Shown here one piece after another: positions 46,415-53,226 of a stretch of DNA of 64,000 nucleotides. Position 1 is the stretch's first letter; each line of letters starts with the position of its first letter. A model generated the notes under the pieces. That model was not told where the DNA came from. It saw only the letters and a list, made by a program, of their open reading frames with translations, and did not search any database. Source of the stretch: Pigmentiphaga sp. NML030171 (GTDB lineage: Bacteria; Pseudomonadota; Gammaproteobacteria; Burkholderiales; Burkholderiaceae_B); contig NZ_NINX01000040.1 in assembly GCF_002188635.1 (NCBI RefSeq), positions 62,001 to 126,000 of the forward strand. The letters are read 5' to 3'. A program made the translations under genes and the position numbers.

Positions 46415-46681
46415 CTATTTCTTCATGCCGTCCTTCGACATGGTGTCCTTCTTCATGTCGTCCTTCTTCATGCCGTCGTGCTTCATCTTGTCGCCGGCCA
46501 TGGCATCTTTCTTCATGTCGTCCTTCTTCATCGCGTCCTTGGCGGGCGCGGTTTGGGACATGGCGTCCTTGCCCATGCCGTCCTTGGCCATGTTGTCCTT
46601 GCCCATGCTATCGGCGGCGTGGGCCGTGACGGCGGCCAGGGCCATGCCCAGGGAAAGAACGAGAGGGGTCAGTTTCTTCAT
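46415..46681 (-). CDS. Secreted Met-rich MXKDX pentapeptide-repeat protein
   Basis: This 88-residue protein has a clean signal peptide (KKLTPLVLSLGMALAAVTAH, cleavage AHA/A). The mature 66 residues consist of pentad repeats of the form M-X-K-D-X (MGKDN, MAKDG, MKKDD, MSKDG and so on), with 12 methionines, many Lys/Asp, one His, no Cys and no aromatics. It matches the family described as pentapeptide MXKDX repeat proteins, of unknown function. It is encoded 65 bp downstream of the YedY/MsrP-like molybdoenzyme on the same strand. By analogy with MrpX of Azospira it may be a sacrificial methionine pool recycled by that enzyme. Confidence 0.88.
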   Translation of the reverse strand: MKKLTPLVLSLGMALAAVTAHAADSMGKDNMAKDGMGKDAMSQTAPAKDAMKKDDMKKDAMAGDKMKHDGMKKDDMKKDTMSKDGMKK

Positions 46682-46746
46682 GCGTCGCTCCTTGAAGCGT
46701 GGGTCGAAAGAGGGCGCGGGGAATCCGCGCCGTATGGAACCTCGGC

Positions 46747-47532
46747 TCAGCTGCCGCCGAACCAGTTGTATCCCTGGTCTTCCCAGTACCCGCCCGGATA
46801 GGCGTTGGTGACGAAAATCGCCTGGACGTGCTTGGGATTCTTGTAGCCAAGCTTGGTCGGCATGCGCAGCTTCATGGGAAAACCGTATTCGCGTGGCAGC
46901 GTGCGCCCGTCGTAGCTCAACGTGAGCAGCGTCTGCGGATGCAGGGCCGTCGCCATGTCGATGCTGGTGTAGTAGTCGTCCGCGCACTTGAAGCCCACGT
47001 ATCGGGCGCCGGTGTCGGCGCCGATGCGGGCCAGGAAGTCCGAGAAGCGCACGCCGCCCCAGCGGCCGATGGCGCTCCAGCCCTCCACGCAGATGTGCCG
47101 GGTGATCTGCTCGGCCTGGGGCAGGGCCCGCAAGTCGGCCAGGCGCCATGGCCGGCGGTCGGCCACGCGGCCGGCAATCTCGAGCCGGTAGTCCGCCTCG
47201 TTCACCTCGGGGGCGTCTTCCACGCCGTAATAGGCGTTGAAGGGAAAGGGGCGCGTGATCATGGACGCGGGATAGGTCGGCGCCAGGGCGTCCGGATCGA
47301 AAAGCCAGCCCTGCACCTTGTCGTTGAAACGGGAAACGGCCGACAGCGCCTGCTCGACACCGGCCTGGCCGGTGATCTCGCAGCCCGACAGCAGGGCCAG
47401 CCCGCCCAGGGACAGCGTGCGGGTCAGGAAGGCCCGCCGCTCGGGCCGTTCGATCCGAGGGGCCAGCAGCCGCCGGGCTTCGCGCAACGCCAGGTCGGCA
47501 TCGGAGGCGGACAGGCGGGAACGTTTTTCCAT
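46747..47532 (-). CDS. YedY/MsrP-like molybdopterin-dependent oxidoreductase, exported
   Basis: The 261-residue sulfite-oxidase-fold enzyme has the Moco-binding cysteine at Cys148 in RHICVEGWSAIGRWGG, plus ITRPFPFNAYYG and FPMKLRMPTKLGYKNPKHVQ. The N-terminus carries a twin-arginine (Arg32-Arg33, ERRAFLTRTLSLGGLALLSG) followed by a lipobox cysteine (Cys51). It is therefore predicted to be Tat-exported and possibly lipid-anchored. It is 9 bp from the upstream b-type cytochrome gene. It likely reduces an oxidised periplasmic substrate such as methionine sulfoxide, taking electrons from the cytochrome. Confidence 0.88.
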   Translation of the reverse strand: MEKRSRLSASDADLALREARRLLAPRIERPERRAFLTRTLSLGGLALLSGCEITGQAGVEQALSAVSRFNDKVQGWLFDPDALAPTYPASMITRPFPFNAYYGVEDAPEVNEADYRLEIAGRVADRRPWRLADLRALPQAEQITRHICVEGWSAIGRWGGVRFSDFLARIGADTGARYVGFKCADDYYTSIDMATALHPQTLLTLSYDGRTLPREYGFPMKLRMPTKLGYKNPKHVQAIFVTNAYPGGYWEDQGYNWFGGS

Positions 47533-47541
47533 GGCCGTCCC

Positions 47542-48171
47542 CTACCTGCCCAGTACCATGGCGCGCAGGGTGCGCGGCACCAGCGCCACCATGGCCAGGT
47601 GCACGACCACGAATCCCACCAACGCGGCCATCGCGGCGAAATGCACGCGGCGCGCCATCTCGTAGCCGCCCATCAACTCGCGCAGCATGCCGAACTGCAC
47701 CGATTTCCACAGCACCAGGCCCGACACGACCAGCAGCGCGACATCGACCATGACGAACAGGTAGGCCAGGCGCTGTACCTGGTTGTACCGGCGCGGATCG
47801 TCGTGGCCCAGGCGGCCGCGCAGCGCCGCCGCCAGGTCGCGCAGCACGCCGCGGGGCGAAAGCGGCAGGAAGCGACGGAACAGGCGCCCGGTCGCCAGGT
47901 TCAGCGCGAGATAGGCCGCGCCGTTGCCGGCCAGCAGCCACATGGCCGCAAAATGCCATTGCAATGCGCCGGCCAGCCATCCGCCCAGGGTGACCGCCTC
48001 CGGGAACGTGAAGCCGAACAGCGGCGAGGCGTTGTAGATGCGCCATCCGCTCGCCACCATGACCAGCACGGCCAGCGCATTCAGGGCATGCGACATGCGC
48101 ACCCACGCGGGATGGACCGGGGGCAGGCGGGAAGCGGGGGGGTGAATCGCCGGGGTGGCCGTCGGGGACAT
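47542..48171 (-). CDS. Cytochrome b561/hydrogenase-type membrane cytochrome
   Basis: This 209-residue membrane protein has four main hydrophobic helices and conserved histidines at His28, His73, His177 and His191 placed to bind two b hemes (RMSHALN, QWHFAAMW, RRVHFAAM, VVHLAMV). This pattern fits the prokaryotic cytochrome b561/Ni-Fe hydrogenase b subunit family more than the YedZ/MsrQ ferric-reductase family. GGAG precedes the ATG at 48171. It would pass quinol electrons to the periplasmic molybdoenzyme encoded next. It is divergent from the two-component system. Confidence 0.85.
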   Translation of the reverse strand: MSPTATPAIHPPASRLPPVHPAWVRMSHALNALAVLVMVASGWRIYNASPLFGFTFPEAVTLGGWLAGALQWHFAAMWLLAGNGAAYLALNLATGRLFRRFLPLSPRGVLRDLAAALRGRLGHDDPRRYNQVQRLAYLFVMVDVALLVVSGLVLWKSVQFGMLRELMGGYEMARRVHFAAMAALVGFVVVHLAMVALVPRTLRAMVLGR

Positions 48172-48310
48172 GCGGGCTCTCCGTTCGAGGTTTGCCGCAT
48201 TGTTGGCCCCCCGCCATCCCGGAGTCCTCACGCAAACTTAAAATAAATGTGATGATTTCCCGCGCCGGGATTGGCGAGAATGCGGTCTACGGTTTTCTAC
48301 AGGCAGGCTC

Positions 48311-49039
48311 ATGGAACGGGTCAAGCGCGTCCTGATCGTCGAGGATGATGCCCATATCGCCGAACTGTTGCGCATGCACCTGCGCGACGAGGGCTATGCC
48401 GTCGAGCATGCGGCCGACGGCGAGCAGGGCATGCGCATGCTGGAGGGCGGGACCTGGGATGCGCTGGTCCTGGACCTGATGCTGCCTGGCGTGGACGGAC
48501 TGGAAATCTGCCGCCGGGCCCGGGCCATGGCGCGCTACACCCCCATCATCATCACCAGTGCGCGTTCCAGCGAAGTCCATCGTATCGTCGGACTGGAACT
48601 GGGCGCCGACGACTACCTCGCCAAGCCCTTCTCCTTGCTGGAGCTGGTGGCGCGCGTCAAGGCGCTGCTGCGCCGCGTGGACGCCCTGGCGCGCCATGCG
48701 CGCATCGAGGCGGGGTTGCTGTCGTTGCACGGCGTGGACCTGGATCCGCTGGCCCGCACGGCCCGGCTGAACGGCAGGGCCATCGACCTGACCCCGCGCG
48801 AGTTCGACCTGCTGGCCTTCTTCGTGCGGCATCCGGACAAGGTGTACTCGCGCATGGACCTGCTGGACGAAGTGTGGGGCTACCAGCACGACGGCTACGA
48901 ACACACGGTCAATACGCACATCAACCGCCTGCGCACCAAGATCGAGGACGACCCGTCCGAGCCGCGGCGCATCCTGACGGTATGGGGCCGAGGCTACAAG
49001 TTCGCCTCGGGCGTGCGGGACGAGGCCGCGGCGCCATGA
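48311..49039 (+). CDS. OmpR-family response regulator
   Basis: The 242-residue protein has a receiver domain with Glu11-Asp12-Asp13, phospho-acceptor Asp55 (ALVLDLMLPGVDG) and Lys in YLAKPFS. The winged HTH is LTPREFDLLAFFVRHPDKVY and YEHTVNTHINRLRTKIEDD. Its stop overlaps the kinase start (ATGA). It is divergent from the cytochrome-molybdoenzyme-MXKDX genes with a 139-bp shared promoter region, so it most likely controls them. Confidence 0.92.
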   Translation: MERVKRVLIVEDDAHIAELLRMHLRDEGYAVEHAADGEQGMRMLEGGTWDALVLDLMLPGVDGLEICRRARAMARYTPIIITSARSSEVHRIVGLELGADDYLAKPFSLLELVARVKALLRRVDALARHARIEAGLLSLHGVDLDPLARTARLNGRAIDLTPREFDLLAFFVRHPDKVYSRMDLLDEVWGYQHDGYEHTVNTHINRLRTKIEDDPSEPRRILTVWGRGYKFASGVRDEAAAP

Positions 49040-50499
49040 AACGCCTGTCGCTCACGCAGCGCCTGTCCCTGGTGTTCGCCGTGCTGCTGCTGGCCTGCAG
49101 CGGGATCTCGCTGCTGTTCCAGATCCAGGCCACGGCGCGCCACGAACAGGAGGTCGTGCAGCAGTTGTCCAGCGGGCTGGCGGCGCACATCGCCGGTACC
49201 GCGCAGTTGATGGACGCGGGCGGCTGGAAGCCGGATGCCGTGCGCGACCTGTTCGACAAGCTGATGGCGGTGAATCCCGCCGTCGAGCTCTACCTGCTCG
49301 ATCCCGACGGACGCATCGTCGGCCATGCGGCCCCGCCCGGCCGCCTTGTGCGCGATCACATCGACCTGGCACCGGTGCGCCGCCTGATGGCCGGCGCCGA
49401 ATTGCCCATACTCGGCGACGACCCCCGGAGCACGGACGCGCGCAAGGTGTTCAACGCCGCCCCGGTGCGCGTCGACGGCAAGGAAGCCGGCTACGTCTAC
49501 GTCATCCTGCAGGGCGAGACGCACGATGCGCTGGCCGCCGGGCTCGCCCGCCATTCGGTGTGGCGCATGACGGGTCTGGCCATGGGACTGGTCGCGCTGC
49601 TGGGACTGATCATGGGCCTCGTTGCCTTCCGCCTCATTACCCGCCCCTTGCGCGCACTGGCCGATACCGTGCGCGACTTCGACGCCGCCAGCGACGTGCC
49701 CGTGGTGGCGCCGGAGCCGGTGCCCGACGACGGCCGGCGCGACGAGATCGCTACGCTGCGCGCCGCCTTCGCGCAGATGAGCCGGCGCATCGCCGAGCAG
49801 TGGCGCGAACTGACCCGCCAGGACCAGCAGCGGCGGGAACTGGTCGCCAACATCTCGCACGACCTGCGCACCCCCCTGACCTCGCTGCATGGCTACCTGG
49901 AAACCCTGCGCGTGAAGGACGGTCTGTTGTCCCGGTGCGAGCGCCATCGCTACCTGGACATCGCGCTGGACCAGAGCCGCAAGGTCGGCGTGCTGGCGCA
50001 GGCGCTGTTCGAACTGGCGCGCCTGGAGTCGGGCCTGGTCCAGCCCGAGCGGGAAACCTTCGCCCTGCCCGACCTGGTGCAGGACGTCGTGCAGAAGTTC
50101 GAGCTGGCGGCCGAGGCGCGGGGCCAGCGCTTGCAGACCGAGATCCCGCCGGCATTGCCGCAGGTGCATGCCGACATCGCGATGATCGAGCGCGTGCTGA
50201 CCAACCTGCTGGACAACGCCATCCGCCACAATCCACCCGGCACGCAGATCACCGTGGGGCTGGCGGCGGCCGGCAACGGCGTGCGGGTGGACGTCCGTGA
50301 TACCGGAGCGGGTATCCCCGCGGCGCTGCGGCCCCGCCTGTTCAAGCGGATCCCCGCCTGGGGCCGCAAAGCGCAGGACAGCGGCGGGCTGGGGCTCATG
50401 ATCGTCCAGCGCATGCTCGCGCTGCATGGCAGCGACATCCGCCTGGTCGAAGACGGCGGACCCGGGACCGTGTTCCGGTTCAGGCTGGGAGTCGACTGA
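49036..50499 (+). CDS. Sensor histidine kinase of the molybdoenzyme-linked two-component system
   Basis: This 487-residue membrane kinase has TM1 near residues 10-28, a periplasmic sensor of about 145 residues, TM2 near 180-205, HAMP (FRLITRPLRALADTVRDF), and HisKA with His275 (VANISHDLRTPLTSLHGYLE). The HATPase domain has LTNLLDNAIRHNPPGTQ, VRDTGAGIP and SGGLGLMIVQRM. The signal is unknown. Its position opposite the Met-rich peptide and MsrP-like genes suggests an envelope oxidative or chlorine stress (inference). Confidence 0.92.
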   Translation: MKRLSLTQRLSLVFAVLLLACSGISLLFQIQATARHEQEVVQQLSSGLAAHIAGTAQLMDAGGWKPDAVRDLFDKLMAVNPAVELYLLDPDGRIVGHAAPPGRLVRDHIDLAPVRRLMAGAELPILGDDPRSTDARKVFNAAPVRVDGKEAGYVYVILQGETHDALAAGLARHSVWRMTGLAMGLVALLGLIMGLVAFRLITRPLRALADTVRDFDAASDVPVVAPEPVPDDGRRDEIATLRAAFAQMSRRIAEQWRELTRQDQQRRELVANISHDLRTPLTSLHGYLETLRVKDGLLSRCERHRYLDIALDQSRKVGVLAQALFELARLESGLVQPERETFALPDLVQDVVQKFELAAEARGQRLQTEIPPALPQVHADIAMIERVLTNLLDNAIRHNPPGTQITVGLAAAGNGVRVDVRDTGAGIPAALRPRLFKRIPAWGRKAQDSGGLGLMIVQRMLALHGSDIRLVEDGGPGTVFRFRLGVD

Positions 50500-50579: not shown

Positions 50580-50939
50580 ATGGATACCTCCACCAAGCCC
50601 CGGTTCCAGTTCCGGCTGCGGGTCTACCGCGACGCTTCCATCGCGATCGGACCGGGCAAGATCGCGCTGCTGGAAGCCATTCTCGAGGCGGGCTCCATCA
50701 CCGCCGCCGCCCAGCAGATGGGCATGTCGTACCGCCGAGCCTGGCTGCTGGTGGACGAGTTGAACCGGTCCCTGCGCGAGCCCGCGGTCGAGAGCGCCGC
50801 CGGCGGGGCGCGCGGCGGCGGCACGGTCGTGACCGACGCGGGCCGCGAACTCATACGGCGCTACCGTTCGATCGAGGCCACCGCCCGCTCGGCCGCGGCC
50901 GAGGACATCGCCGCCATGGCAAGCATGCTCGTCGACTGA
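50580..50939 (+). CDS. ModE-like winged-HTH regulator lacking the molybdate-binding domains
   Basis: This 119-residue protein corresponds to the N-terminal DNA-binding half of ModE: IAIGPGKIALLEAILEAGSI, TAAAQQMGMSYRRAWLLVDE, then a wing ending TDAGRELIRRYRSIE. The C-terminal MOP/TOBE domains that bind molybdate in E. coli ModE are absent, so direct ligand sensing must differ. A TACAAT hexamer about 40 bp upstream may be the -10 box. It is the first gene before modB-modA-modC, 71 bp away. Confidence 0.85.
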   Translation: MDTSTKPRFQFRLRVYRDASIAIGPGKIALLEAILEAGSITAAAQQMGMSYRRAWLLVDELNRSLREPAVESAAGGARGGGTVVTDAGRELIRRYRSIEATARSAAAEDIAAMASMLVD

Positions 50940-51010
50940 CGCGAGTCCGGGCCCCGCCCGGCATTCGCTCGCGCTACCGTCCAGCCAGGATTCGCTGTAT
51001 TCTTCGGAAT

Positions 51011-51688
51011 ATGACGAATGCGCTGCTGGATTCCTTCGACGCTTTTCCGCTGATCCTGTCCCTGAAGGTCGCGGCCCTGGCCACCGTGCTGGCCCTGGTC
51101 GCGGGCGTGGGCCTGGGCTGGCTGTTCGCGCGCAAGCCGTTTCCGGGCAGTTCGATGGCCGAGGCCGTGTTCATGCTGCCGCTGGTGCTGCCGCCCACGG
51201 TCATCGGCTACGCCATCCTGCTGGCGGCGGGCCGGCGCAGCCCCCTGGGCCGCTGGATCTACGAGCACTTCGACTACACCATCATCTTCAGCTGGCACGG
51301 CGCGGTCGTGGCCTCGGCCATCGTCGCCCTGCCGCTGGTCCTGAAGTCGGCCAGCGCCGCATTCGGCGGCATCGACCGTACCCTGGAAGCCGCCGCCAGC
51401 ACGCTGGGCCAGTCGCGCTGGTCGGTGTTCGTGCGCGTGACCCTGCCGCTGGCCTGGCCGGGCATCCTGGCCGGCACCCTGCTGGCTTTCGCGCGCGCCA
51501 TGGGCGAGTTCGGCGCCTCGCTGATGGTGGCGGGCTCGATTCCCCAACGCACGCAAACGCTTTCCATGGCCATCTACGACGCCACGCAGGCGGGGCAGGA
51601 CGACCTGGCCCTGCTGCTGGTGCTCATCACCTCGGCCATTTCCATCGCCATCCTGGTGGCCTGCAACCGCTATCTGTCGCTACGCTGA
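51011..51688 (+). CDS. modB: Molybdate ABC transporter permease
   Basis: This 225-residue inner-membrane permease has about five helices. The ModB motif FMLPLVLPPTVIGYAILLAA and the EAA loop EAAASTLGQSRWSVFVRVTL are clear. The order modB-modA-modC differs from the common modABC but is seen in several betaproteobacteria (from memory). With ModA and ModC it imports molybdate for molybdenum cofactor, which the molybdoenzyme encoded 3.5 kb upstream would need. Confidence 0.92.
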   Translation: MTNALLDSFDAFPLILSLKVAALATVLALVAGVGLGWLFARKPFPGSSMAEAVFMLPLVLPPTVIGYAILLAAGRRSPLGRWIYEHFDYTIIFSWHGAVVASAIVALPLVLKSASAAFGGIDRTLEAAASTLGQSRWSVFVRVTLPLAWPGILAGTLLAFARAMGEFGASLMVAGSIPQRTQTLSMAIYDATQAGQDDLALLLVLITSAISIAILVACNRYLSLR

Positions 51689-51697
51689 AGGAACCCC

Positions 51698-52447
51698 ATG
51701 TCCCGCATCCGCCATGCCGCCCTGTTGCTTGCCTTCGCCCTGCCGTTTCAGGCTTGCGCCCAGGAGATCACCGTATCGGCCGCGGCCAGCCTGACCAACG
51801 CCTTCAAGGACCTCGGCAAGCAATTCGAGCAACGGCATCCCGGCACCACGGTGCGGCTCAACTTCGCGGCCTCGGGCACGCTGCTCCAGCAGATGAGCCA
51901 GGGCGCGCCGGTGGACGTGTTCGCCAGCGCCGACCAGGCCACGATGGACAAGGCCGTGGCGCAGAACCTGATCGACGTGCCGACGCGGCGCGATTTCGCC
52001 GCCAACAGCCTGGTGCTGGTCACGCCCGCGCAGGGCGGTCCTGCCATCGCCTCGCTGCAGGACCTGGCCGGCGCGCCGGTCAAGCGCATCGCCGTCGGCA
52101 AGCTCGCCACGGTGCCGGTGGGCAACTACACCAGGCAGGCGCTGGACCGCGCCGGCCTGTGGACCGCGCTCGAACCCAAGTTCATCCAGGCCGACAGCGT
52201 GCGCCAGGTGCTGGACTACGTGAGCCGGGGCGAGGTGGACGCCGGCTTCGTCTACCGTACCGACGCGGCCATCATGCAGGACAAGGTCAGGATCACGCTG
52301 ACCGCCGGCGGCCATACGCCGGTGACCTATCCCGTGGCGGTGCTGTCCGGCAGCAAGCACCAGGCGCAGGCCAGGGCCTTCATCGACTTCCTGCTGTCCG
52401 CGCCCGGCCAGCAGGTGCTGGACCGCTACGGATTCGGCAAGCCGTGA
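51698..52447 (+). CDS. modA: Molybdate-binding periplasmic protein
   Basis: The 249-residue protein has signal peptide HAALLLAFALPFQACA and mature ITVSAAASLTNAFKDLGKQF. The ModA ligand-site motifs ASLTNAF, FAASGTLLQQ and VDVFASADQATM are present, with VKRIAVGKLATVPVGNYTRQ further on. GAAGGAA precedes the ATG. Its stop overlaps the modC GTG start by 4 bp. It binds molybdate (and probably tungstate) in the periplasm. Confidence 0.93.
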   Translation: MSRIRHAALLLAFALPFQACAQEITVSAAASLTNAFKDLGKQFEQRHPGTTVRLNFAASGTLLQQMSQGAPVDVFASADQATMDKAVAQNLIDVPTRRDFAANSLVLVTPAQGGPAIASLQDLAGAPVKRIAVGKLATVPVGNYTRQALDRAGLWTALEPKFIQADSVRQVLDYVSRGEVDAGFVYRTDAAIMQDKVRITLTAGGHTPVTYPVAVLSGSKHQAQARAFIDFLLSAPGQQVLDRYGFGKP

Positions 52448-53226
52448 TCGATGTCGACATCGCGCTGACGGTGCGCGACGGCAGCCGGCGCTTCGACCTG
52501 GCGGCTCGCTTCGCCTCCGATGCGCCCTTCGTCGCGCTGTACGGGCCGTCGGGCTCGGGCAAGTCGCTGACCCTGCAGGCGGTGGCCGGACTGCTGCGGC
52601 CCGGAGCCGGCCACATCCGGCTGGACGGCCGGACCCTGTTCGACGCCGCGCAAGGCATCGACGTCGCGCCGCCCGCGCGCGGTATCGGCTACCTGTTCCA
52701 GCATTACGCGCTGTTCCCGCATCTGTCGGTGCGCCAGAACATCGCCTTCGGCCTGACCTCGTGGCGCCGTCGTCGCCTGTCGCCCGAGGACGGGCGGCGC
52801 GTGCAGGCCCTGATCGACCGCTTCGGGCTGACCGCCATGGCCGGCAGCCGGCCCGGCGTGCTGTCGGGCGGCCAGCAACAACGCGTGGCGTTGGCGCGGG
52901 CCCTGGCCTGCCAGCCCCGCGCCCTGTTGCTGGACGAACCCTTCGCCGCGTTGAATCCCATGCTGCGCGGCGAACTGCGCAAGGAGCTGGCCGAGGTAGC
53001 GCGGCAGTGGGGCATCCCCGTGCTGATGATCACGCATGATATCGACGACGTGCTGGAGCTGGCCAATGTCGCCTTTCTTTACCAGGACGGGCAGGTCACG
53101 CGCAAAGTGAACCTGCGCAGCGGACAAAGCCGCGATTTCGTCCGCCGCGCACTGGGTGACGACGCGCCGGCCGAGACGCCGATGCGCCAGCGCCTGCGCA
53201 CGCTGCTGAACCCGGGCGCGTCCTGA
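52444..53226 (+). CDS. modC: Molybdate ABC transporter ATPase, short form without MOP domain
   Basis: The 260-residue ABC ATPase has Walker A GPSGSGKSLTLQ, Q-loop FQHYALFPHLSV, signature LSGGQQQRVALARAL, Walker B ALLLDEPFAAL and the switch His in MITHDIDD. It starts with GTG in the GTGA overlap with modA. It is about 90 residues shorter than E. coli ModC because the C-terminal MOP/TOBE regulatory domain is missing, matching the similarly shortened ModE-like regulator upstream. Confidence 0.9.
   Translation: MIDVDIALTVRDGSRRFDLAARFASDAPFVALYGPSGSGKSLTLQAVAGLLRPGAGHIRLDGRTLFDAAQGIDVAPPARGIGYLFQHYALFPHLSVRQNIAFGLTSWRRRRLSPEDGRRVQALIDRFGLTAMAGSRPGVLSGGQQQRVALARALACQPRALLLDEPFAALNPMLRGELRKELAEVARQWGIPVLMITHDIDDVLELANVAFLYQDGQVTRKVNLRSGQSRDFVRRALGDDAPAETPMRQRLRTLLNPGAS

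Follow-up and report, generated by a model that had tools for sequence, protein, structure and literature searches.

A divergent OrhKR-type gene module in Pigmentiphaga sp. NML030171, probably a periplasmic methionine-sulfoxide repair system

The 64,000-nucleotide stretch of Pigmentiphaga sp. NML030171 analysed here (contig NZ_NINX01000040.1, positions 62,001 to 126,000; hereafter the window, in whose own numbering all coordinates are given) contains a divergent module of five genes, all with open reading frames. Its leftward arm encodes a b561-type membrane cytochrome, a molybdoenzyme with a twin-arginine translocation (Tat) signal and a secreted methionine-rich peptide built of MXKDX repeats; its rightward arm encodes an OmpR-type response regulator and a sensor histidine kinase. 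The cluster likely serves to repair methionine sulfoxide in the periplasm, and it is orthologous to the OrhKR–c3566–c3568 locus of Escherichia coli. The strongest evidence for this function is that one operator-like box stands ahead of both thiol-dependent methionine sulfoxide reductase (Msr) genes and the cytochrome–enzyme–peptide operon. The five-gene layout had been proposed in a first-pass annotation of the letters alone, and it is borne out by the reading frames, by matches to PF00174, PF01292 and TIGR02953 and by the regulator and kinase domains. Judged by sequence comparison, the module is a real, conserved system of the OrhKR–c3566–c3568 type, the layout of which has already been published.

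Operator-like box and link to msr genes

The box lies between the two divergent operons at 48225–48257 (plus strand). It spans 33 bases of the form TCAC-N17-GTGA, with the approximate consensus TCCTCACGNAAANTTNAATTAATYGTGATAACT, and is predicted by motif and weight-matrix comparison to be a response-regulator site. It is the sole place in the 5.86 Mb genome that fits the core pattern with zero mismatches. Two further places with two mismatches (L225, L226) contained no box by weight matrix at a threshold of 12, and were taken as chance because a backward control pattern gave three. Excerpts of a 2021 paper report that E. coli OrhR binds its promoter in gel-shift assays and describe inverted repeats, TCACA-N15-TGTGA, as the potential site (PMC8550376). 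The corresponding repeat of the window, TCACG-N15-TGTGA, differs in one base of the left arm. Outside E. coli, too, the regulator presumably acts through this box.

Relatives of the module were collected in two sets. The first comes from 300 sampled genomes of the order, in which an enzyme of at least 60% identity over most of its length defined a relative; apart from the window's own locus it comprises 33 loci, spread over 30 genomes, a partial match (G052, 67% over 69 residues) and all matches below 60% identity having been left out. Neighbours in this sample were counted over loci with the stated flank (900 nt on both sides, 31 loci; 4 kb, 29 loci). The second set, the best 80 named loci listed (81 enzyme genes), is biased to close kin. 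The box was found in all regulator-linked module loci of both sets (26/26 and 2/2) and in the Rahnella and E. coli loci. Most of these loci had trained the weight matrix; the Pseudomonas loci are independent of the training, and there the box precedes the operon in 27 of the 28 module loci that have no adjacent regulator. As controls, none of seven loci of a sister enzyme family and none of ten loci with the peptide away from the enzyme carried a box.

Box and regulator are linked to genes for secreted MsrB, DsbD–thioredoxin and MsrA. Eight genomes were followed up, seven of Pseudomonas and that of Bordetella genomosp. 13, and each holds one regulator orthologue of 74–76% identity that is unlinked to the module. 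It is divergent from msrB and msrA in all eight, with a box in the space between, and a gene for a DsbD-transmembrane/thioredoxin fusion stands between msrB and msrA in seven. The box precedes the regulator in 8/8 by weight matrix and in 7/8 by a stricter pattern, and the unlinked cytochrome–enzyme operon also carries it in seven, the exception being L084. Methionine-sulfoxide repair is the best reading of the module because the regulator stands beside msrB and msrA with the same box that is found at the cytochrome–enzyme operon. Among Burkholderiales, four of seven unlinked regulator orthologues (L213–L216) adjoin msrA and a DsbD–thioredoxin gene, with a strong box at L213, L215 and L216 and a weak one at L214. 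Where a locus encodes MsrA, the catalytic motif of that protein follows a hydrophobic leader at 24 of 27 module loci and at 12 of 12 regulator loci. In a limited search of the open-licence literature, a link of OrhR-type regulators to msrB, dsbD and msrA was not found in print.

Molybdoenzyme and cytochrome

The enzyme gene (46747–47532, minus strand) encodes a Tat-signal molybdoenzyme of the sulfite-oxidase fold family (PF00174, 104 bits). In an alignment of 121 rows, comprising the best frame per locus scoring at least 300 bits and the window, Arg32, Arg33, Gly50, Cys51 and Cys148 are all conserved at 1.00 (rounded). The Tat export and Cys148 noted in the first-pass annotation were upheld, and a feature absent from it was added, namely that the twin-arginine signal ends in the lipobox LALLSGC (Cys51); a separate script found a loose lipobox pattern in 121/121 enzyme frames. 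Because the signal closes with a lipobox, the enzyme is probably a membrane-anchored Tat lipoprotein.

The active-site loop at Cys148 reads HICVEGWS in the window, MRCVEAWS in MsrP of E. coli K-12 and LRCVEGWS in the genome's own MsrP, all three with the motif CVExWS, and it differs from the CSGN loop found in a third paralogue of the genome, which is sulfite-oxidase-like. The description of the enzyme as MsrP-like holds for the loop; membership of the MsrP model NF003767 failed, with 76 bits against a cut-off of 207. Identity as MsrP was rejected on this score and on the presence of a canonical msrPQ on another contig of the same genome (MsrP 485 bits, MsrQ 165 bits). In a 77-row tree with midpoint root, the module enzymes and two MsrP rows are separated by very long branches. 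A sister enzyme family (L191–L197, 37–42% identity) also has an adjacent cytochrome match (51–83 bits); no MXKDX peptide or box was found at these seven loci.

The cytochrome gene (47542–48171, minus strand; PF01292, Ni_hydr_CYTB, 80 bits) lies 9 bases upstream of the enzyme gene. Four haem-ligand histidines had been proposed; instead, five (His 28, 73, 123, 177 and 191) are conserved at 1.00 across the 116 rows with scores of 180 bits or more. The protein is not an MsrQ-type haem partner by comparison, giving no match to the MsrQ model at E 0.1 and no blastp match to MsrQ at E 10. It is a probable electron donor from quinol to the enzyme. The opposite direction of flow, in which the molybdoenzyme would take electrons from a substrate such as sulfite or some reduced sulfur compound and the cytochrome would feed them to quinone, draws on two observations: the fold family includes sulfite oxidases, and the nearest NCBIfam models of the cytochrome, all below cut-off, are the b subunits of hydrogenase and formate dehydrogenase, which donate to quinone. 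Nevertheless, the loop CVEGWS is that of MsrP and not the CSGN of the sulfite-oxidase-like paralogue, the box is common to the module and msrB/msrA, and the enzyme is linked to the peptide, which together make such an oxidase highly improbable.

Methionine-rich peptide

The peptide gene (46415–46681, minus strand) encodes 88 residues, 66 of them mature if the signal cleavage site, placed by eye, is accepted, and its product belongs to the MXKDX repeat proteins TIGR02953 (93.7 bits, cut-off 41). A composition count agrees with the earlier description of 12 Met in the 66 mature residues and no Cys, Phe, Tyr or Trp, and 10 of the 11 Met–Met spacings are exactly 5. Across 73 such peptides, about 19% of the residues are Met, set at a spacing of 5 in 834 of 904 instances; the set was picked by the repeat itself, and so shows regularity and not function. 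From the peptide side, an above-cut-off MXKDX match occurs in 24 genomes of the order, and 19 of these have the enzyme gene next to it (hand count). In two of the remaining five the peptide gene has a weak NrsF match nearby, and in another a gene for an extracytoplasmic function (ECF) sigma factor, neighbours which may recall the ECF control of Brucella and Azospira.

A methionine-rich peptide might instead bind Cu(I) or another metal, with the enzyme and cytochrome keeping peptide or metal reduced and the two-component system acting as metal sensor. Heavy-metal regulator and kinase models are indeed among the below-cut-off NCBIfam matches, and a heavy-metal ATPase and a cation diffusion facilitator are encoded in the vicinity of the B. 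contaminans plasmid copy. Cu(I) sites, however, commonly use MxM or MxxM, and spacings of 2 or 3 make up only 5 of the 904; the peptides are also poor in Cys and His, and the box-linked partners are methionine-sulfoxide reductases. Although excerpts of PMC9302797 report that copper, acting through CusSR, induces E. coli msrP as well, metal handling is considered quite improbable.

A further alternative keeps the repair and drops the redox role of the peptide: the enzyme would repair envelope proteins in general, and the peptide would be a structural or chaperone-like stress protein. The absence of the MXKDX peptide from 13 of 31 order-sampled loci fits this view, as do below-cut-off matches of the window peptide to YbgS and of the Rahnella peptide to Spy. 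The high Met content and regular spacing argue the other way, within the limit already given for this set, and so does the sacrificial role reported for the Azospira peptide MrpX, as cited in PMC8550376. This alternative is regarded as unlikely, and the peptide is preferably read as a redox substrate of the repair module.

Conservation of the neighbourhood

The neighbourhood counts confirm that the module arrangement is conserved and not due to chance. The co-occurrence check that had been suggested with the first annotation came out in its favour: in the order sample the cytochrome adjoins the enzyme in 31/31 loci and the MXKDX peptide is within reach in 18/31. A gene for MsrA or MsrB is found within 4 kb at 8/29 loci, and one for MsrA at 7/29, for which a hand estimate of the chance expectation (56 MsrA matches, 30 genomes, about 132 Mb) is about 0.1; the seven fall in about four families and are not all independent. 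An ECF gene is present within 4.5 kb in 7/29. Among the best 80 named loci the corresponding counts are 72/72 for the cytochrome, 62/72 for MXKDX, 23/71 for the regulator and 14/64 for MsrA. Six of the ten without MXKDX, all Pandoraea (L097, L099, L102, L103, L113, L114), carry a downstream Met-rich frame with 10–12 Met in 60 residues and without the strict MXKD repeat; that of L097, the sole one tested, gave no NCBIfam match at E 0.01. Of 11 Pigmentiphaga genomes, 6 have the module with at least 80% identity.

Several observations weigh against the full repair cycle. In the order sample the box was found at just 3 of the 33 loci and is lacking from 30, and no more than 2 of the 31 loci with enough upstream sequence have a regulator orthologue next to the module; three genomes of this kind, G255, G285 and G058 (stop inside the gene), do hold a regulator relative of at least 68% identity. 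The congeneric locus L052 keeps the three genes, with an enzyme 90% identical, and has no adjacent regulator pair or box. The Pseudomonas locus L084 has the regulator orthologue, but its module is without box and MXKDX peptide. At the Burkholderiales regulator loci L211, L212 and L217, searches found no msr genes beside the regulator and no box above the threshold of 12. The single MsrA of the window's own genome has no hydrophobic leader and sits away from the module. The enzyme scores far below the MsrP model, which leaves methionine sulfoxide a putative substrate. Finally, one of the 13 order loci lacking the peptide (L171) has a Met-rich reading frame instead; since those 13 do without MXKDX, the enzyme must have other substrates.

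A single origin of the two-component linkage was also rejected. On the enzyme tree six changes were needed and the starred branches force at least four, indicating that the linkage was gained or lost repeatedly. The module is found on a Rahnella plasmid with identical layout and on a B. contaminans plasmid (L035, L036 and L089, Telmatospirillum included); the latter plasmid is typed as conjugative, and its peptide is not called MXKDX. A metagenome assembly of Telmatospirillum, which would be an alphaproteobacterium provided that the binning is correct, likewise has the module together with the regulator. The plasmid and Telmatospirillum copies suggest horizontal transfer. In Bordetella genomosp. 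2 (L054, 1541–8216), cytochrome, enzyme and peptide are present as two tandem copies. The best 80 named loci include many of Pseudomonas, Variovorax, Polaromonas and Achromobacter, which are largely environmental or opportunist. The earlier premise of an animal-associated genus is doubtful, and the names of the carriers lend no special support to the suggestion of neutrophil defence.

The rightward arm consists of the regulator gene (48311–49039, plus strand; PF00072 and PF00486) and the kinase gene (49036–50499, plus strand; N-terminal sensor region, HAMP and HisKA domains). Read from the sequence, the kinase start is better set at 49036, overlapping the regulator stop, and kinase Met76, a possible parallel to the sensor of HprSR, is kept in 97% of 39 aligned rows. 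After the kinase, at 50580–53226, follow frames named by eye as a ModE-like regulator and ModA/ModB/ModC-like molybdate transport proteins. In three kin genomes, too, ModA and ModE relatives adjoin the module (L051 and L220, which are the same stretch; L053; L222), and the Pandoraea loci have ModA beside the module in six cases and ModE in five. These neighbours are consistent with a molybdenum enzyme.

Relation to known systems

The closest known system is that of uropathogenic E. coli CFT073, published in 2021, in which c3564 (OrhK), c3565 (OrhR), the cytochrome c3566, the MsrP-like c3567 and the Met-rich c3568 match the five genes of the window in the same divergent layout (PMC8550376, seen in excerpts). 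The combination can thus no longer be presented as new. By blastp, the window proteins are 56% (enzyme), 59% (regulator) and 44% (kinase) identical to those of CFT073, and the cytochrome 50 and 52% in two pieces; the regulator and kinase are taken as OrhR and OrhK orthologues. According to the excerpts, kinase and regulator are required for expression and for peroxide resistance, tert-butyl hydroperoxide reduces growth of the c3564, c3565, c3566 and c3567 deletion mutants, and the operon reportedly continues into a hemolysin operon (PMC8550376); a single mutant of the peptide gene is not described in them. In the window, by contrast, an aconitase-family reading frame on the opposite strand lies beyond the peptide gene. 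In RefSeq the CFT073 cytochrome gene carries a frameshift annotation, and the E. coli peptide matches TIGR02953 at 35 bits, under the cut-off of 41, and has two Cys where the window peptide has none.

In Azospira suillum, MrpX, YedY1 and YedZ1 under SigF/NrsF are said to form a proposed scavenging cycle, reportedly set out by Melnyk in 2015. Compared by description, through citing papers, that system likewise has a Met-rich secreted peptide beside a molybdoenzyme and a membrane haem protein; it differs in its YedZ-type donor and in control by an ECF sigma factor with NrsF, in place of which the window has a two-component pair. In Brucella melitensis, BcrX is an MXKDX protein of an operon induced by hypochlorous acid (HOCl) and tied to HOCl resistance, under an ECF factor (PMC8315932, excerpts), so that the view of MXKDX proteins as lacking an assigned function is outdated. 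BcrXQP with BcrS/AbcS resembles the window in joining an MXKDX peptide to a putative Msr enzyme and a membrane partner, and differs in that the partners are described as MsrQP homologues and the control as ECF sigma and anti-sigma (PMC8315932). E. coli MsrPQ with HprSR shares a molybdoenzyme of the same domain family, the CVExWS loop and two-component control. As this precedent was already known for a periplasmic Msr (PMC9302797, excerpts), two-component control is not a novelty of the module either. In the tree, however, MsrP lies on the other side from the module enzymes, no similarity of MsrQ to the b561 cytochrome could be detected, and the genome holds MsrPQ alongside the module. No peptide gene was present in the region of the K-12 msrPQ operon examined.

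Proposed mechanism and significance

The data agree with a cycle in which the kinase would sense an envelope oxidant and the phosphorylated regulator would bind the TCAC-N17-GTGA box, switching on cytochrome, enzyme and peptide. The exported peptide, with its many exposed methionines, may then serve as a sacrificial sink, oxidised in place of envelope proteins. The Tat-lipoprotein-anchored molybdoenzyme would reduce methionine sulfoxide in the peptide, in envelope proteins or in both, and the b561 cytochrome would supply the electrons, with quinol as their most likely source. A methionine-oxidation repair cycle with a b561-type donor and an adjacent two-component system replacing the ECF factor had been put forward from the letters alone, and is supported here as an inference. 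A wider proposal, for and against which the balance appears even, is that the enzymes constitute a distinct Tat-lipoprotein family of molybdenum methionine-sulfoxide reductases with a dedicated b561 quinol donor, joined in one oxidant-sensing regulon with the thiol-driven MsrB/DsbD–thioredoxin/MsrA; quinol and thioredoxin routes would restore the same periplasmic methionines, and the MXKDX peptide would be a rechargeable sink.

The repair of envelope methionines by molybdoenzymes is familiar chiefly from MsrPQ. With the conserved box and the msrB–dsbD–msrA link, a function would be assigned to MXKDX peptides, to OrhR-type regulators beyond E. coli and to a molybdoenzyme family labelled only as molybdopterin-dependent oxidoreductase in plasmid records. 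Both features also open the regulon to direct tests in soil Pseudomonas.

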